Shown here in pieces: positions 12,134-19,082 of a stretch of 39,528 nt of DNA. The stretch covers positions 1-39,528 of the forward strand of contig JAFSHU010000136.1 in NCBI GenBank assembly GCA_017440145.1. The letters run 5' to 3'. The notes beneath the pieces were generated by a model that worked only from the letters and a program-made list of their open reading frames with translations, was not told where the DNA came from and searched no databases. Position numbers and translations under genes: made by a program. Source of the DNA: Bacillota bacterium. GTDB taxonomy: Bacteria > Bacillota > Dehalobacteriia > UBA4068. Position 1 is the stretch's first letter; the number at the start of each line of letters is the position of its first letter.

Positions 12134-12470
12134 TTATATCGGCGCTGTGCTGCTGATGTTCCTGGGTTTATATACCATCATCATGAAGAAGCATCTGATC
12201 AAGATTGTTATGGGGATGTGCCTGATGGATTATGGTGTAAACCTGCTCATCGTCAGCATCGGCTTCAACCCCGGGGGGACCGCCCCGATCTTCACCATCT
12301 CCGAGCTGGATCCCGGCGCATTCTTCGTGGATCCTGTTCCCCAGGCGCTGACCCTGACCTCCATCGTCATCGGCGCCTGCGTAATGGCTATGGCTCTGTC
12401 CATCGTCATTAAAATCAAACAAAAATATAAGACCTTGGATGCAGGTCGGATCAGGAGGTTGAACGGATGA
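12120..12470 (+). CDS. Mrp-type antiporter subunit C homologue (NuoK/MbhG-like)
   Basis: A 116-residue NuoK/MrpC-family protein with three membrane helices. The segments IIMKKHLIKIVMGMCLMDYGVNLL and PQALTLTSIVIGACVMAMAL are diagnostic (quoted in part). The start at 12120 has GAGGAGG upstream and overlaps the subunit B stop. NuoK-like subunits form part of the proton/sodium path next to the large antiporter subunit. The stop overlaps the start of the next gene by four bases. Confidence 0.92.
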   Translation: MIIANYIGAVLLMFLGLYTIIMKKHLIKIVMGMCLMDYGVNLLIVSIGFNPGGTAPIFTISELDPGAFFVDPVPQALTLTSIVIGACVMAMALSIVIKIKQKYKTLDAGRIRRLNG

Positions 12471-14383
12471 TACAGCATTTCCCCATCCTCTCTATTATGA
12501 GCCTGTTTCTGGGTTCCTTTTTGATCGTGATTTTCGGCGGAAAAAATCGCTTTATCCGGAACAGCCTGGCTGTTTTGTTTTCCGCCATTCCCCTGGTGCT
12601 CATCTGCTGCCTGATCAAACCCATCCTGATTGATGGGGAGATCTTCAGCTACTGGATGGGTGACTGGGAGCCGGTTTCCGGCTTCGCCATCGGCATCGGC
12701 CTGGAGGTGGATGCTTTAAGCCTCTTCTTCGCTCTCCTGGTGGTGCTGACCATCTTCTTGGCGGCCGTGTTCTCTTTGAAATACATGAGTCGCGATGATG
12801 CGCTGGACAAATACTACACCCTCTTCCTGATGCTGGGCGGCGGTGTGCTGGGTCTGGTGCTTTCCGGCGATCTTTTCAACATGTATATCATGGTGGAGAT
12901 CCTGACCTTTGCTTCTGTGGCTTTGACTGCTTTCCGGAACTGGGGCAAAGGATCTTTGGAAGCGGCCTTCAAGTATCTGGTGGTTGGTTCCATCGGCTCT
13001 GCCTTCATTCTGACCGGCGTGATTTTGATTTACGCGCAGGTGCATACTCTGAGCCTGGCGCAGATTTCCGCCCTGTTGGCTACAGAGGGTCTGACCCCGG
13101 CCACGATTTTTGGTTTTGCCCTGCTTTTTGCCGGTTATGCGACGAAAGCCTATATCGTCCCCTTCCACCCGGTGGCAGCGGATGCCTATATGACTGCGCC
13201 GTCTTCCATCTCCATGGTGTTCTCCGGTATGGTAAACAAAGCGGGGATCTATGGTATGATCCGCCTGGTCTATATGGTGTTCCAGGCCATGAGCCAATCG
13301 GCGATGCAATACATTATTGTGATTCTGGGCTGCCTGACCATGTTCATTGGTGTGACTATGGCCCTTTCCCAGCATGATTTCAAACGCCTGCTGGCTTTCC
13401 ACAGCATTTCCCAGATCGGTTATGTGCTGACAGCTGTGGGTCTGGCCACGGCGCTGGGCATCAGCGGCGGTTTGTATCACGCGCTGAACCATACTTTGTT
13501 CAAAGGTCTGCTCTTCCTCTGTGCCGGTGCCGTTTTCTACAGCGTTGGCAGCACGGATCTGGATAAGCTGGGCGGCCTGGCGAAGAAAATGCCGCAGACC
13601 ACCATTATTTTCCTGATCGGTGCTTTTTCCATCAGCGGTCTACCGCCTTTCAACGGCTTTATGTCCAAATGGATGATCTACCAGGCCGCCTATGAAAAGG
13701 CAGCTCTGGAAGGCAGCTTCTTCTATGCTTTGGTCACCATCGTGGGGCTTCTGGTCAGCGTGCTGACCCTGGCTTCCTTCATCAAAGTGACCCAGTCTGT
13801 TTTCTTCGGGCAGCTGGCTCCCGGCTGCGAGAAGGCAAAAGAGGTTCCGTTTTCCATGCGCTGGCCCATGTGGCTTATGGCTATCCTCTGTGTGCTTACC
13901 GGCCTCTTCCCGGGCTTTGTCAACCGCTATCTGGTGGTGCCGGCAAGCGCTGCGGCCATCGATACCACCGGCTACATTGATGCCATGATGGGTGCGGGCT
14001 ACGGGCAGCAGCTCGGCCTTTCCCCGGAAACGGCCCTGTCTCTGGAATATGAGCTGACAGGCTACTGGGATCCCATCGCCTGGCTGGTTCTTTTCGTTGT
14101 CCTTCTGGCGGGGCTGATGATTTCCCTGGGCCTGGGGAAAGCCTCCCGCGGGCCTGTCCGCCGTCCTGTTCCGGCAGACCCCAAATACGATACCTTCTTC
14201 GGCGGGGAAGCCAGCCAGCATTCCCATGTGGGCGGTTCTGATCTGTTCTGGGGCCTGAAGCATAACCTGCGCCACTATTTCCGTTTCATGCATAGCATGC
14301 ACAGCGGTGTGGTCAATGATTATGCCCTTTGGACGGTGGCCGGCACTGCTGTCATCATCCTGTTCATGATCCTGTTTCTTTAG
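12467..14383 (+). CDS. Mrp subunit D-like antiporter subunit with C-terminal MbhI-like extension
   Basis: A 638-residue NuoL/M/N-family antiporter subunit with about 14 membrane helices. The key Glu of the fifth helix is visible in MYIMVEILTF (Glu144), and the central Lys region in YATKAYIVPFHPVAADAY and FKGLLFLCAGAVFY. MrpD and MbhH are usually about 500 residues. Here about 130 more follow: a membrane segment near residue 550, a polar stretch with KYDTFFGGE and MHSGVVNDYALW, and a last membrane helix. Two helices joined by a long linker is the layout of MbhI, which has no separate gene here, so this is probably an MbhH-MbhI fusion. Confidence 0.88.
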   Translation: MIQHFPILSIMSLFLGSFLIVIFGGKNRFIRNSLAVLFSAIPLVLICCLIKPILIDGEIFSYWMGDWEPVSGFAIGIGLEVDALSLFFALLVVLTIFLAAVFSLKYMSRDDALDKYYTLFLMLGGGVLGLVLSGDLFNMYIMVEILTFASVALTAFRNWGKGSLEAAFKYLVVGSIGSAFILTGVILIYAQVHTLSLAQISALLATEGLTPATIFGFALLFAGYATKAYIVPFHPVAADAYMTAPSSISMVFSGMVNKAGIYGMIRLVYMVFQAMSQSAMQYIIVILGCLTMFIGVTMALSQHDFKRLLAFHSISQIGYVLTAVGLATALGISGGLYHALNHTLFKGLLFLCAGAVFYSVGSTDLDKLGGLAKKMPQTTIIFLIGAFSISGLPPFNGFMSKWMIYQAAYEKAALEGSFFYALVTIVGLLVSVLTLASFIKVTQSVFFGQLAPGCEKAKEVPFSMRWPMWLMAILCVLTGLFPGFVNRYLVVPASAAAIDTTGYIDAMMGAGYGQQLGLSPETALSLEYELTGYWDPIAWLVLFVVLLAGLMISLGLGKASRGPVRRPVPADPKYDTFFGGEASQHSHVGGSDLFWGLKHNLRHYFRFMHSMHSGVVNDYALWTVAGTAVIILFMILFL

Positions 14384-14397
14384 GGGAGGTGCGTGAA

Positions 14398-15351
14398 ATG
14401 CAAATATTGCTTGATTTGTTTTATGTGCTGATTTTCCCCGGGTTCCTCTTCTGCGCTGTGGTGGGGCTGCTGCTGGCCGGCATTGACCGAAAGATTGTGG
14501 CCCGTATGCAGAAGCGCATGGGCCCCCCCATCGTTCAGCCCTTCTATGATTTCTTTAAGCTGCTGGGCAAGGAAACCATCATTCCCCATGCAGCCTCCAG
14601 AGGCGTTTTCATCGCAGCCCCTCTGCTGGGTCTGGTCTCTTTGGTGGTGATGGCCCTCTTTATCCCGGTCTTTGGCTTCACGGCCTTCAGCGGCGTGGCG
14701 GATCTGATCGTCATTCTCTACCTGCTGACCATTCCTGCGGCTGCGATCATCGTTGGCGGCGCGGCTTCCGGTTCTCCTTATGCCGGTGTGGGTATCTCCC
14801 GAGAGATGGTTGCCATTGTCGCCTATGAGCTGCCGCTGATCATCGTTCTGCTGACCGTGGGCAAAAAGGCAGCTCTGGATGGTGGCATTACCTTCTCATT
14901 TACGGAGATTCAGGCTTACCAGGCTGAATTCGGCTCCATGCTCAGTCACTGGAGCATGATCCCCGCTGCCGTTGCCATGCTGCTGGTGATCCCCAGCGAG
15001 GTTGGCAGCCATCCCTTTGATGTGGCGGAAGCCGAAACAGAGATCTGCGAAGGCCCCCTGGTGGAATACAGCGGCTCTTTGCTGGGCATCTATAAACTGA
15101 ATCATGCCATCAAGATGTTCATCCTCACCGCATTGTTTGCCGCACTTTTCCTGGGCGGCGCGGGAAGCGGCATCCTGATTGTGGATGTGCTGCTGCTTCT
15201 GCTCATCTGCACTGTGGTAACGATCCTTTCCATGTCTCTGCCGCATGCCATCAGCGCCCGCCTGAAAGTAGAGAAGATGTTTAAATTCTACTGGACGCTG
15301 GTTACGGTATTGGCGGTGATCAGCCTGGTTCTGGTTTGGATGGGCTTTTAA
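14398..15351 (+). CDS. NuoH-like membrane anchor subunit (MbhM/EchB-like)
   Basis: A 317-residue membrane protein of the NuoH family, which anchors the hydrogenase arm and links it to ion pumping. The N-terminal block ARMQKRMGPPIVQPFYDFFK, the central SREMVAIVAYELPLI and the acidic loop HPFDVAEAETEICEGPLVEY are conserved landmarks. GGGGAGGTG lies just upstream of the ATG at 14398. Position between the antiporter subunit and the small subunit matches its bridging role. About eight hydrophobic helices are visible. Confidence 0.93.
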   Translation: MQILLDLFYVLIFPGFLFCAVVGLLLAGIDRKIVARMQKRMGPPIVQPFYDFFKLLGKETIIPHAASRGVFIAAPLLGLVSLVVMALFIPVFGFTAFSGVADLIVILYLLTIPAAAIIVGGAASGSPYAGVGISREMVAIVAYELPLIIVLLTVGKKAALDGGITFSFTEIQAYQAEFGSMLSHWSMIPAAVAMLLVIPSEVGSHPFDVAEAETEICEGPLVEYSGSLLGIYKLNHAIKMFILTALFAALFLGGAGSGILIVDVLLLLLICTVVTILSMSLPHAISARLKVEKMFKFYWTLVTVLAVISLVLVWMGF

Positions 15352-15405
15352 TCGGCAGGCGGAAGCGCTGCTTTGTTTCTCAAGTCTCTGATAAGGAGAG
15401 TGCTT

Positions 15406-15846
15406 ATGTTCAAAAAGATCATCGACAACAGCATGGCAAAATCCCCCTGGATTTATCATATCAATACGGGCTCCTGCAATGGCTGCGATATCGAATTGGT
15501 CTCGGTCATCACGCCCCGTTATGATGCGGAGCGCATGGGCTTTAAGCTGACCGGCACCCCCAGACATGCGGATATCGTGGTGGTCTCCGGCCCTGTCACT
15601 TCCCAATCCAAGGAGCGTTTGGTTCGGACACTGGCCCAGGTACCGGAACCCCGGGTGATCGTTTCTCTGGGCTCCTGCCCCCGTCCCTGCAATGTGTTTA
15701 AGGGCAGCTATTCCGTGGAGGGTCCTCTGGATAAGTTTTGCGAGGTGGATGTGTCTGTAGCAGGCTGCACGCCGAAGCCGGAAGCCATCATCGACGGCCT
15801 GGCCCTGGCGGCACAGATTTTAAAAGAGAAGAGGAGGCAGAAATAA
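15406..15846 (+). CDS. group 4 [NiFe] hydrogenase small subunit (MbhJ/EchC/NuoB-like)
   Basis: A 146-residue electron-transfer subunit that carries one [4Fe-4S] cluster next to the NiFe site. The four ligands are visible: Cys24 and Cys27 (GSCNGCDIE), Cys91 (GSCPRPC) and Cys121 (GCTPKPEAI). Most relatives have GCPP-x-PEAI at the last site; here Thr replaces the first Pro. The size is right for the compact group 4 type, which lacks the extra domain of uptake hydrogenases. AAGGAGAG precedes the ATG. It overlaps the ferredoxin gene by one base. Confidence 0.94.
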   Translation: MFKKIIDNSMAKSPWIYHINTGSCNGCDIELVSVITPRYDAERMGFKLTGTPRHADIVVVSGPVTSQSKERLVRTLAQVPEPRVIVSLGSCPRPCNVFKGSYSVEGPLDKFCEVDVSVAGCTPKPEAIIDGLALAAQILKEKRRQK

Positions 15847-16319
15847 TGGGTCTTCCTTTTATCAAAGAAGCAATTACGCAGCTTTTCAGCAAGCCCAGCA
15901 CGGAGAAATATCCCCTGGTGAAAAAGGAGGTCAGCGATGGCTTCCGCGGGAAGCTGGTTTTTCATCCGGAGCTTTGCATCAACTGTGGGATGTGCATGCG
16001 TGTCTGCGCGCCCCAGGCCATTACCCGCACGATTGAAAAAACAGAAGAGGGGGACAGGATCACCATGGAATTCCACATGGGTTCCTGCACCTTCTGCAGC
16101 ATGTGCGCGGATTTTTGCTCCAAGAATTCCATTGAGCTGAGCAAGGAATACTCCATGGTCGTCACGAACGAGGATGATCTGAAGGTTCGCGGCAGCTTCA
16201 TTAAGAAGGCGCCCCCCAAAAAGGAGCTGAGCCCGGAGCAGCTGGCCAAGCTGAAAGCAGCGAAGGCTGCTAAAGATGGAAAAGCGGAGGAGGAATTTGA
16301 TTCCTGCCCGGATGCATAA
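15846..16319 (+). CDS. 2[4Fe-4S] ferredoxin-type subunit (MbhN/EchF-like)
   Basis: A 157-residue polyferredoxin subunit that takes electrons from ferredoxin and passes them to the small subunit. Two CxxCxxCxxxC/P motifs give Cys44, 47, 50, 54 and Cys81, 84, 87, 91, the NuoI/EchF pattern. The last 35 residues are an unusual Lys/Ala/Glu-rich tail (QLAKLKAAKAAKDGKAEEE) beyond the folded domain. The ATG at 15846 has GAGGAGG eight bases upstream and overlaps the small-subunit stop. It is the last gene of the operon; a strong terminator follows 14 bases later. Confidence 0.93.
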   Translation: MGLPFIKEAITQLFSKPSTEKYPLVKKEVSDGFRGKLVFHPELCINCGMCMRVCAPQAITRTIEKTEEGDRITMEFHMGSCTFCSMCADFCSKNSIELSKEYSMVVTNEDDLKVRGSFIKKAPPKKELSPEQLAKLKAAKAAKDGKAEEEFDSCPDA

Positions 16320-17148: not shown

Positions 17149-17170
17149 AAATAGAATCAGAATACAACAA

Positions 17171-17200
17171 AAGCAGAGTATCTCAGATACTCTGCTTTTT
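17171..17200. terminator. bidirectional terminator
   Basis: AAGCAGAGTATC (17171-17182) and GATACTCTGCTT (17186-17197) form a perfect 12-bp stem with a TCA loop, with a T tract on the plus strand and A-rich sequence before it. It separates the rightward YcxB-like gene from the leftward DUF3887 gene and can serve both. Confidence 0.88.
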
Positions 17201-17247: not shown

Positions 17248-17658
17248 TTACTTCATATAAAGGCCGATCAAATCCATATTTTCATCGAAGGTGATGGTGA
17301 AGGTCCGCTTCCCATCTTCAAATTTCGCCAGCACCATAGTCATGGCGTAGTTTTCCTCTCCGTCCGCGCTTTTCTGCCCGGCTGAAGCTGTGGCCCGGAA
17401 TTTTTCGAATTCACCGTTCTCATCCAGCATGGCATCCAGCTGGGAGGCCAGATATTCCGGCGTCAGCTCTGCGGACAGATCCTCCCGAAACATGCTGCAG
17501 ACCACATCATAATTCCGGCTGATGACCAGCATAGCCACTTCCTCTGCCTTCGCCTGAACCTGCGCTTCATCAAAGCAATCTGCCAGAGCATTCTCAGAGC
17601 AGGCGCTGCAGCTTAAAAGAGCAAGGAGCAGCAGAAGAATCAAAGTGAATTTTTTCAT
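17248..17658 (-). CDS. DUF3887-like lipoprotein
   Basis: A 136-residue exported lipoprotein. The signal peptide MKKFTLILLLLLALLSCSAC ends in a lipobox with lipidated Cys20. The rest, with ISRNYDVVCSMFREDLSAELTPEYL and a final beta-rich stretch (RTFTITFDENMDLIGLYMK, quoted in part), matches the DUF3887 fold, a small NTF2-like domain of unknown role that often modulates cell-surface proteins. GAAGG lies upstream of the ATG. It is the last gene of the leftward run that begins with the flavodoxin-like gene, 43 bases after the XRE-desulfoferrodoxin gene. Confidence 0.72.
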   Translation of the reverse strand: MKKFTLILLLLLALLSCSACSENALADCFDEAQVQAKAEEVAMLVISRNYDVVCSMFREDLSAELTPEYLASQLDAMLDENGEFEKFRATASAGQKSADGEENYAMTMVLAKFEDGKRTFTITFDENMDLIGLYMK

Positions 17659-17701: not shown

Positions 17702-18286
17702 TTAATAGCGCAGACGGAACAGGCCATGCTGATTGCAGTAGATATAAAACCAGCCGTGTCCATTCCGCGGAAAGCGCAGATCAATCCCCTGTTCCGGGTA
17801 CATGCGTTGCAGGAACAGGCTGCCCCCGGTCACATAGGCGATGAAAGAGATAAAGTGTTCCTTTTCCATGGGGTGCTCCATATGCACATAAAGCCCACCA
17901 TCCATATATTCCACGCTGGGCAGATGTTCTCCTTCTGCTTCCGCGGGCGTCAGAGCCTCCAGGGTTTTCCCGCAGCAGGAGATTGCTGCCGGGCCGCTGG
18001 AAGCAAGGATATTGCCGCAATCCGGGCAAACATAGAATCTGCTTCTTTTCATATTTCCTCCGTCCTGTTGATTTTTGGGCAGCTCGCCGGATAGCAGGTC
18101 TTCCAGCCGCAGCCCCAGCAGACGGGAGACCTCTCCCGCCAGGGGAAGGTCGGGGCAGCCGCAGCCCCTTTCCCATTTGCTGACAGCTTGGGCCGTAACA
18201 GACAGGCGTTCTGCCAGCTGCTGCTGTGTATAGCCTGCTTTTCGTCGAGCCTCGGCGATGAGGGCACCGATTTTCTTCTGATCCAT
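17702..18286 (-). CDS. XRE-family regulator fused to a complete desulfoferrodoxin
   Basis: A 194-residue protein. Residues 5-65 are a Cro/C1-type helix-turn-helix (TQQQLAERLSVTAQAVSKWE). Residues 84-112 match the desulforedoxin-like centre I with Cys87, Cys90, Cys104 and Cys105. Residues 119-194 match superoxide reductase centre II: His121 (EHLPSVE), His138 and His144 (HPMEKEHF), Cys184 and His187 (CNQHGLF), which are all five iron ligands. In superoxide reductases a catalytic Lys precedes the first His (E-K-H); here it is Glu120 (G-E-H). This suggests iron-based sensing of superoxide or redox state rather than catalysis. The start has AGGAGGT upstream. The gene lies between DUF3887 and alkD-like genes. 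Confidence 0.88.
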   Translation of the reverse strand: MDQKKIGALIAEARRKAGYTQQQLAERLSVTAQAVSKWERGCGCPDLPLAGEVSRLLGLRLEDLLSGELPKNQQDGGNMKRSRFYVCPDCGNILASSGPAAISCCGKTLEALTPAEAEGEHLPSVEYMDGGLYVHMEHPMEKEHFISFIAYVTGGSLFLQRMYPEQGIDLRFPRNGHGWFYIYCNQHGLFRLRY

Positions 18287-18401
18287 CCGCTCAACACCTC
18301 CTGAAAGCATTGTAAGCTGTCCTTTGCCTGCAGACAAGCAACGCTTCGTTGAATCCATACTGATCCTGGCTTCCCGGAGAAAGCCGGGAATCTCTTTCTG
18401 T

Positions 18402-19082
18402 CTAACGACGCAGCCCCCGCAGGGTTTCTTTTCGTTCCTCCGGGATGCGCCTGCTTTCAATGGCCTTCTGAATGGATTTGTTATGCAGCCATTTGTCCAG
18501 CCTTTTCTGCTGAAAAAGGGGCAGGGTGCTTTCGTATTGGCTGGCCAGGGCATAACTCATATACCAGGCAATGGCCATGTTGATATAATACTCCTCCCGC
18601 CCTAAGCAGGCCAGCAATTCCAGGCTTTCCGGCCGAAACTCTGCACCCAGGTAAAATTTCAGCAGTACATCAATGGCGAAACGCACCGTATAGCAATGGG
18701 GGCTCTGCAGCCATTCCAGACATTTTTCGTAGACGGGGTCGGGGTATCTGGCAAAAATCCGGATGGAGAGTGTGTCGCAGGTGGCCCAGTTGTCCACATG
18801 GGGAAGAAAGGCCTCCAGCAGGGAGAAGCTCTGGGGCAGATCTTTGCAGATGCTGTTCAGCAAAAGGGCATGGAGCTGGTTCTCGTCATAAAAGGAATGG
18901 GGCAGAGCTTCCAAAAATGCAGCTCTGCGCGAATCATTCAGCAAGGTTTTTGCATAGGCCCTTAGCCGAGGCATGCGCACGCCCAGAATCCGCTCCGGCG
19001 GTAAATTCGGGATGAGCCTTGCCTGAAAGGCGGCATAATCCGCATCCCGCAGAGCCTGCAGCTCCCGAAGAATGCTTTCCAT
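18402..19082 (-). CDS. AlkD-like DNA alkylation repair protein
   Basis: A 226-residue all-helical protein of the DNA-alkylation-repair (AlkD/COG4912) HEAT-like repeat family. AlkD is a DNA glycosylase that removes bulky or positively charged alkylated bases without flipping them. The block HVDNWATCDTLS near residue 95 holds the conserved Trp and Asp of the family, and RFAIDVLLKFYL and YYINMAIAWYMSYALA follow as later repeats. Length is normal. It begins one base before the stop of the YbjQ-like gene, so the two are co-transcribed. Its position upstream of the redox-sensor-like gene suggests a small stress-response group. Confidence 0.88.
   Translation of the reverse strand: MESILRELQALRDADYAAFQARLIPNLPPERILGVRMPRLRAYAKTLLNDSRRAAFLEALPHSFYDENQLHALLLNSICKDLPQSFSLLEAFLPHVDNWATCDTLSIRIFARYPDPVYEKCLEWLQSPHCYTVRFAIDVLLKFYLGAEFRPESLELLACLGREEYYINMAIAWYMSYALASQYESTLPLFQQKRLDKWLHNKSIQKAIESRRIPEERKETLRGLRR

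Follow-up and report, generated by a model that had tools for sequence, protein, structure and literature searches.

An HTH-desulfoferrodoxin fusion protein of a Bacillota bacterium, probably a self-controlling gene switch, and the operator predicted at its promoter

We analysed a stretch of 39,528 nucleotides from an anaerobic-type Bacillota bacterium (contig JAFSHU010000136.1; this whole stretch is called the window below), in which one gene joins a helix-turn-helix (HTH) domain to a desulfoferrodoxin part (Dx-SOR, a form of superoxide reductase, SOR) and has a conserved predicted operator over its own promoter (Table 1). Our best explanation as a whole, which we hold to be fairly probable, is that the HTH-Dx-SOR protein is an autoregulating transcription factor with a Dx-SOR input domain; in other words, an old SOR enzyme has probably turned into a self-controlling, redox-sensing gene switch. 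The domains, their ligands, the class-wide loss of the catalytic lysine, the operator, the promoter geometry and the specificity of the site come directly from the computation; the signal, the sense of regulation, the dimer and the metal content are put forward below as a model. The first-pass annotation of this DNA, which had proposed a DNA-binding regulator on an SOR scaffold within a stress regulon formed with its neighbours, is partly supported: the conserved operator and the class-wide lysine loss bear out the regulator, and the regulon has been given up.

Table 1. Features of the fusion gene and its surroundings (window coordinates)
Feature	Position	Strand	Basis or remark
HTH-Dx-SOR fusion gene, 194 aa	17702..18286	-	domain and structure matches; layout shared by 62 full-length homologues
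HTH_3 domain, residues 10-64	18095..18259	-	Pfam
Recognition helix, residues 32-39, with Gln33	within HTH_3	-	helix limits from AlphaFold2 model
Desulfoferrodoxin part, residues 81-191	17714..18046	-	TIGR00320, solved-structure matches, model
Centre I ligands Cys87, Cys90, Cys104, Cys105	17972..18028	-	Cys4 in 60 of 62 homologues
Gly119-Glu120-His121, at the Glu47-Lys48-His49 position of stand-alone SORs	17924..17932	-	alignment
Ribosome-binding site AGGAGGT	18296-18302	-	upstream of the fusion-gene ATG
-10 TACAAT	18309..18314	-	17 bp past -35
-35 TTGTCT	18332..18337	-	begins 8 bp past dyad centre
Predicted operator TCAACGAAGCGTTGCTTG	18335..18352	-	upstream alignment, pattern scans
Perfect inner palindrome CAACG-AAG-CGTTG	18339-18351	-	inside operator
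DUF3887 protein gene, N-terminal signal-like stretch	17248..17658	-	43 bp downstream of fusion gene, same strand
Terminator-like hairpin, 14 pairs, strong	17169..17199	-	would end the unit

The fusion gene and its neighbourhood

The N-terminal part of the product matches Pfam HTH_3 with E 2e-12 (47.3 bits against a cut-off of 23), and the C-terminal part matches both the TIGR00320 dfx_rbo model (E 9e-14) and the solved desulfoferrodoxins 1DFX, 2JI1/2JI2 and 1VZG (E 4e-11 to 3e-10). Pfam Desulfoferrodox covers residues 136-191, barely above its cut-off (22.4 versus 22.2 bits), and the 51.7 bits of the TIGR00320 match lie under the curated cut-off of 146.9, so the protein is not a desulfoferrodoxin equivalog by that model. 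All nine iron ligands of both centres are present in the alignment, including the five of centre II (His121, His138, His144, His187, and Cys184), and an XRE-type HTH joined to both centres, as read earlier from the letters, is thus borne out. The same holds for the glutamate in place of the catalytic lysine: Lys48 of the D. baarsii enzyme corresponds to Glu120, and Glu47 to Gly119, so the Glu47-Lys48 pair that stands ahead of the first His in the enzyme is Gly119-Glu120 here. The AlphaFold2 model of the protein (mean pLDDT 85, pTM 0.57) resembles the D. baarsii and D. desulfuricans SORs with a TM score of about 0.7 normalised to the target length, and the modelled HTH superposes on the DNA-binding domain of ImmR with an rmsd of 0.8.

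The start codon is sound: Met stands at this column in 57 of the 62 homologues, AGGAGGT precedes the ATG, and the -10 of the promoter falls between this ATG and the in-frame upstream ATG at 18553 that the ORF lister had chosen. A mis-called start that would remove the HTH from close homologues, or a chance fusion, is ruled out by the 62 homologues with the same start.

The DUF3887 gene adjoins the fused gene also in a genome of the same genus, and the two are probably co-transcribed. AlkD, YbjQ, and flavodoxin genes, which the first-pass annotation had taken as members of a stress regulon, are on the same strand; this block is upstream of the operator and is shared only with the same-genus genome, and the idea was dropped on both grounds. 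No widely recurring family was found at the +1 or -1 position of the fused genes among the loci surveyed. Elsewhere in the window, on the plus strand (12467-16319), there are genes whose translations read like membrane hydrogenase/complex-I-like subunits and a ferredoxin-type protein.

A class of fused proteins that has lost the catalytic pair

The pair of domains is already known: SORGOdb in 2011 listed 19 proteins whose Dx-SOR module follows an N-terminal HTH as the class HTH-Dx-SOR (PMC3116461). The window protein fits this class, having the same order of HTH, desulforedoxin, and SOR module, with CxxC...CC and the five centre II ligands; but the SORGOdb paper gives no function or operator, and the members found here mostly lack the lysine and often have an incomplete centre II. 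In the literature we searched, we found neither the class name outside the SORGOdb paper nor a characterised member or a function for the class. TrtA of Treponema denticola was considered as a characterised relative and set aside, since it is 104 aa long and the paper describes no similarity other than that of the HTH.

The search of other genomes, which combined a species-genome scan with six profile searches and a search of plasmids, yielded 62 distinct full-length fused proteins, with a fused-gene match in 32 of the 399 sampled genomes of the phylum. One of the replicons, NZ_CP154629.1 of Acetoanaerobium noterae (2.6 Mb), is labelled as a plasmid yet is chromosome-sized. In a tree of the desulfoferrodoxin parts of these proteins and of 41 stand-alone SORs (40 from these or related genomes, plus D. 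baarsii), all 62 fused parts fall on one side of a branch with support 100/100 (few columns, no outgroup), which would fit a single origin of the class.

The catalytic lysine is found in only one of the 62 fused proteins (Monoglobus pectinilyticus, L078) but in every one of the 41 stand-alone SORs; its loss is thus a trait of the whole class and not peculiar to the window protein. In the stand-alone SORs, which were chosen by similarity to the D. baarsii SOR (a choice that favours typical ones), Glu47, Lys48, His49, and every centre II ligand are invariant. The fused class has kept the Cys4 of centre I almost throughout, the two exceptions having His for the last Cys; its centre II has fared unevenly, with the first His in 33/62, His138 in 62/62, His144 in 61/62, Cys184 in 59/62, and His187 in 49/62 proteins, such that the five-ligand centre is complete in 27 (the window protein included) and incomplete in 35. 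In addition, K/R142, Tyr163-Pro164-Glu165, and Arg171 are near-invariant in the class and differ from the conserved residues of SOR. This pattern of retention, together with the new residues, suggests that centre II is still under selection, though many members would no longer use it as a standard reductase site. Two cysteines of the HTH, Cys42 and Cys44, were considered as a redox switch and ruled out by their poor retention (9/62 and 37/62, respectively).

A conserved operator and what it marks

Alignment of the upstream regions revealed a dyad, TCWACG-NNN-CGTWG, common to the promoters of fused genes; in the window it lies within the stretch 18287-18400, where the first-pass annotation had suggested looking for a shared operator. 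The core ACG-N3-CGT stands upstream of 34 of the 62 fused genes (mean 2.1 and maximum 6 in 200 shuffles), and the dyad count rises to 50 of 62 once near variants and sites at operon heads are included; all operator statistics are inflated by the relatedness of the sequences. The geometry is fixed: in 41 of 42 promoters, the -35 begins 8 bp past the dyad centre, followed exactly 17 bp further on by the best -10, in a scan that permitted spacers of 15-19. With an inferred transcription start, the dyad centre is near -43 and the operator overlaps the -35, in agreement with a class II, CI-like arrangement (operator centre near -42, in fixed phase). Lambda CI, an XRE/HTH_3 activator, acts at PRM from an operator whose centre is close to -42, beside the -35 of its own promoter. 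The fixed phase and a centre near this activating position of CI would favour activation, with repression as the alternative. The window protein thus has two marks of an XRE/HTH_3 regulator, a domain over the cut-off and, by conservation, a palindromic operator at its own promoter.

The operator need not directly precede the fused gene. In one branch (L210-L214 and L077, the A. noterae replicon) it heads an operon in which the fused gene is last; these operons begin with a gene for a short protein that matches no Pfam family, and most add DUF6530 and AAA_5/VWA ATPase genes, while that of L077 has no third gene. In L210 a second operator precedes an MFS transporter gene. Contig G339:C14 (L156/L244) carries a second copy of the fused-type desulfoferrodoxin gene that lacks the HTH; the operator still lies some 370 bp upstream of it, which looks like the outcome of decay in the HTH part.

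The site is specific. In the window's own assembly, a scan for exact and one-mismatch sites found the window site as the sole exact match and a single one-mismatch match, no more than the reversed-pattern control gave. In 33 genomes there are 15 exact matches: 12 stand before fused genes (one of these genes bears in-frame stops), and one each before the HTH-less copy, before an FMN_red gene, and within coding sequence. Across the 399 genomes, the site marks the fused genes and the FMN-reductase-like gene: the strict pattern has nine matches (six fused genes, the HTH-less copy of G339, the FMN_red gene of G027, and one coding site), compared with two for the reversed-pattern control, and it occurs in 7 of the 32 genomes with a fused gene versus 1 of the 367 without (Fisher 8e-8, inflated by relatedness). 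Exact matches in G256:C119 and G207:C22 fall within coding sequence and were discounted as chance hits.

In G027 the FMN_red gene has the operator with a full promoter (-35 TTGCTT, -10 TATAAT at 17 bp), and in five other genomes (G045, G410, G165, G339, and G268) an FMN_red flavoprotein gene is in one unit with the fused gene. All six FMN_red proteins contain C-x2-C-x2-C and another Cys 6-7 residues on, a pattern that we take to recall iron-sulfur flavoproteins. The gene after the fused gene in L189 was also considered as an FMN reductase and ruled out, since it is CatA-like. At stand-alone sor genes (about 40 loci), no operator scored above the threshold, and about 30% of the genomes with a fused gene have no stand-alone SOR match (Pfam Desulfoferrodox); a tie to superoxide defence genes is therefore lacking. 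For example, nine genomes of the window's order (G021, G022, G024, G025, G027-G030, and G032) have the fused gene and no such match, so that the regulator is retained where the enzyme is not.

Residue 33, which lies early in the recognition helix, covaries with the operator: Gln goes with A at operator base -5 in 8 of 8 cases and Lys/Arg with another base in 50 of 51, counts that are inflated by relatedness, although Gln is paired with TCAACG repeatedly, in the fused proteins as well as in the HTH-only ones. What follows the helix tracks the right arm, with ETGKG(F/L/Y)P accompanying CGTAGG and ERGLGCP mostly CGTT. Residue 33 is accordingly a candidate specificity residue. Six XRE regulators with another C-terminal part or none (L011, L014, L015, L016, L017, and L097) are preceded at their own genes by dyads of the TCAACG type, suggesting that one type of site is common to a wider superfamily of regulators; the HTH-only paralogues having the site carry Gln33, as does the window pair. 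The sharing of this site type indicates that the HTH, rather than the desulfoferrodoxin part, would read the DNA.

Proposed mechanism and competing readings

In the model that we favour, the lambda-repressor-type HTH would bind the dyad as a dimer, presumably held together by the desulfoferrodoxin part, and would control the fused gene's own promoter, by activation or, alternatively, repression. The Dx-SOR part would be the input domain, with putative Cys4 and His4Cys iron centres and without the catalytic Glu-Lys pair; its oxidation or the binding of a ligand (superoxide, O2, peroxide, or NO) would shift DNA binding instead of serving fast turnover. The targets would be few, namely the fused gene and genes co-transcribed with it (DUF3887 here, the FMN-reductase-like flavoprotein in several relatives). 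From the sequences it seems to us very likely that the members of the class bind DNA, regulate themselves and have few targets; that they respond to an oxidant through the iron centres has, in our judgement, somewhat less than an even chance, with superoxide or redox as a plausible signal. A narrower version, with a former SOR that now senses superoxide (or O2/NO) directly through mononuclear His4Cys iron, its Glu-Lys pair lost, and switches its own promoter in CI-like fashion, unrelated to SoxR and spread among Clostridia-like anaerobes, is tentative and rather doubtful. Against the favoured model in general, the incomplete centre II of 35 members speaks against one common chemistry at that centre.

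Could the protein instead still scavenge superoxide, the HTH merely tuning its own amount? The window protein itself invites the question, with its nine ligands, a strict operator solely at its own gene, and no stand-alone SOR found in its assembly (84% complete); moreover, natural SORs without the lysine exist, as a PDB entry for an Ignicoccus hospitalis T24K mutant reminds us, so loss of the lysine by itself is no proof of inactivity. The class speaks differently: the Glu-Lys pair is gone class-wide, more than half of the members lack a complete centre II, the newly conserved residues are unlike those of SOR, and most genomes with a fused gene also have an intact stand-alone SOR, including the same-genus genome, which has both. 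We consider such a self-controlled reductase quite improbable, but since the window member combines a complete centre II with the apparent lack of a stand-alone SOR in its incomplete assembly, its residual reductase activity is worth testing.

The uneven fate of the two centres, I nearly invariant and II decayed in many members, would also suit a structural or metal-availability module, in which centre I (Zn or Fe) is an element of the fold or dimer and centre II senses iron supply or is idle; a ZIP metal transporter gene adjoins the fused gene of one relative. His138, His144, and Cys184, however, are kept above what a purely structural role would lead one to expect, and no metal-uptake gene recurs beside the fused genes, which leaves this reading unlikely. 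It is very improbable that the dyad is read by some other member of the HTH superfamily to which the fused protein belongs, and not by the fused protein itself: the sites before HTH-only paralogues do show that this kind of site predates the fusion or extends beyond it, but the strict pattern marks the genomes with fused genes, and in proteins of both kinds residue 33 varies together with the operator, as if each reads its own site.

Among known systems, the window protein shares the fold and all iron ligands with the Dx-SOR/2Fe-SOR desulfoferrodoxins (D. baarsii, D. desulfuricans; TIGR00320), and differs in the added HTH, the lost Glu47-Lys48, a clade of its own, and a score far under the TIGR00320 cut-off. 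It shares the HTH superfamily and the position of the operator centre beside the -35 with lambda CI at PRM, although it has a single dyad in place of an operator array, an iron-binding input domain, and only putative activation. SoxR, IscR, and PerR are iron-based regulators of oxidative stress that use Fe-S clusters or a Fur-type site; the fused protein would work alike, an iron centre reporting oxidants to a DNA-binding domain, but is unrelated in fold and has mononuclear Cys4 and His4Cys centres.

What is new for the class is the 18-bp operator, its fixed promoter geometry, the candidate residue 33, the class-specific residues K/R142 and Tyr163-Pro164-Glu165, and a small predicted regulon made up of the protein's own operon and the FMN-reductase-like flavoprotein; an annotation curiosity listed since 2011 thereby becomes a directly testable regulator. 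Superoxide sensing in anaerobes, the setting of the HTH-Dx-SOR class, is poorly understood, and if the signal is superoxide, the class would clearly exemplify how an enzyme turns into a sensor through the loss of its catalytic pair.
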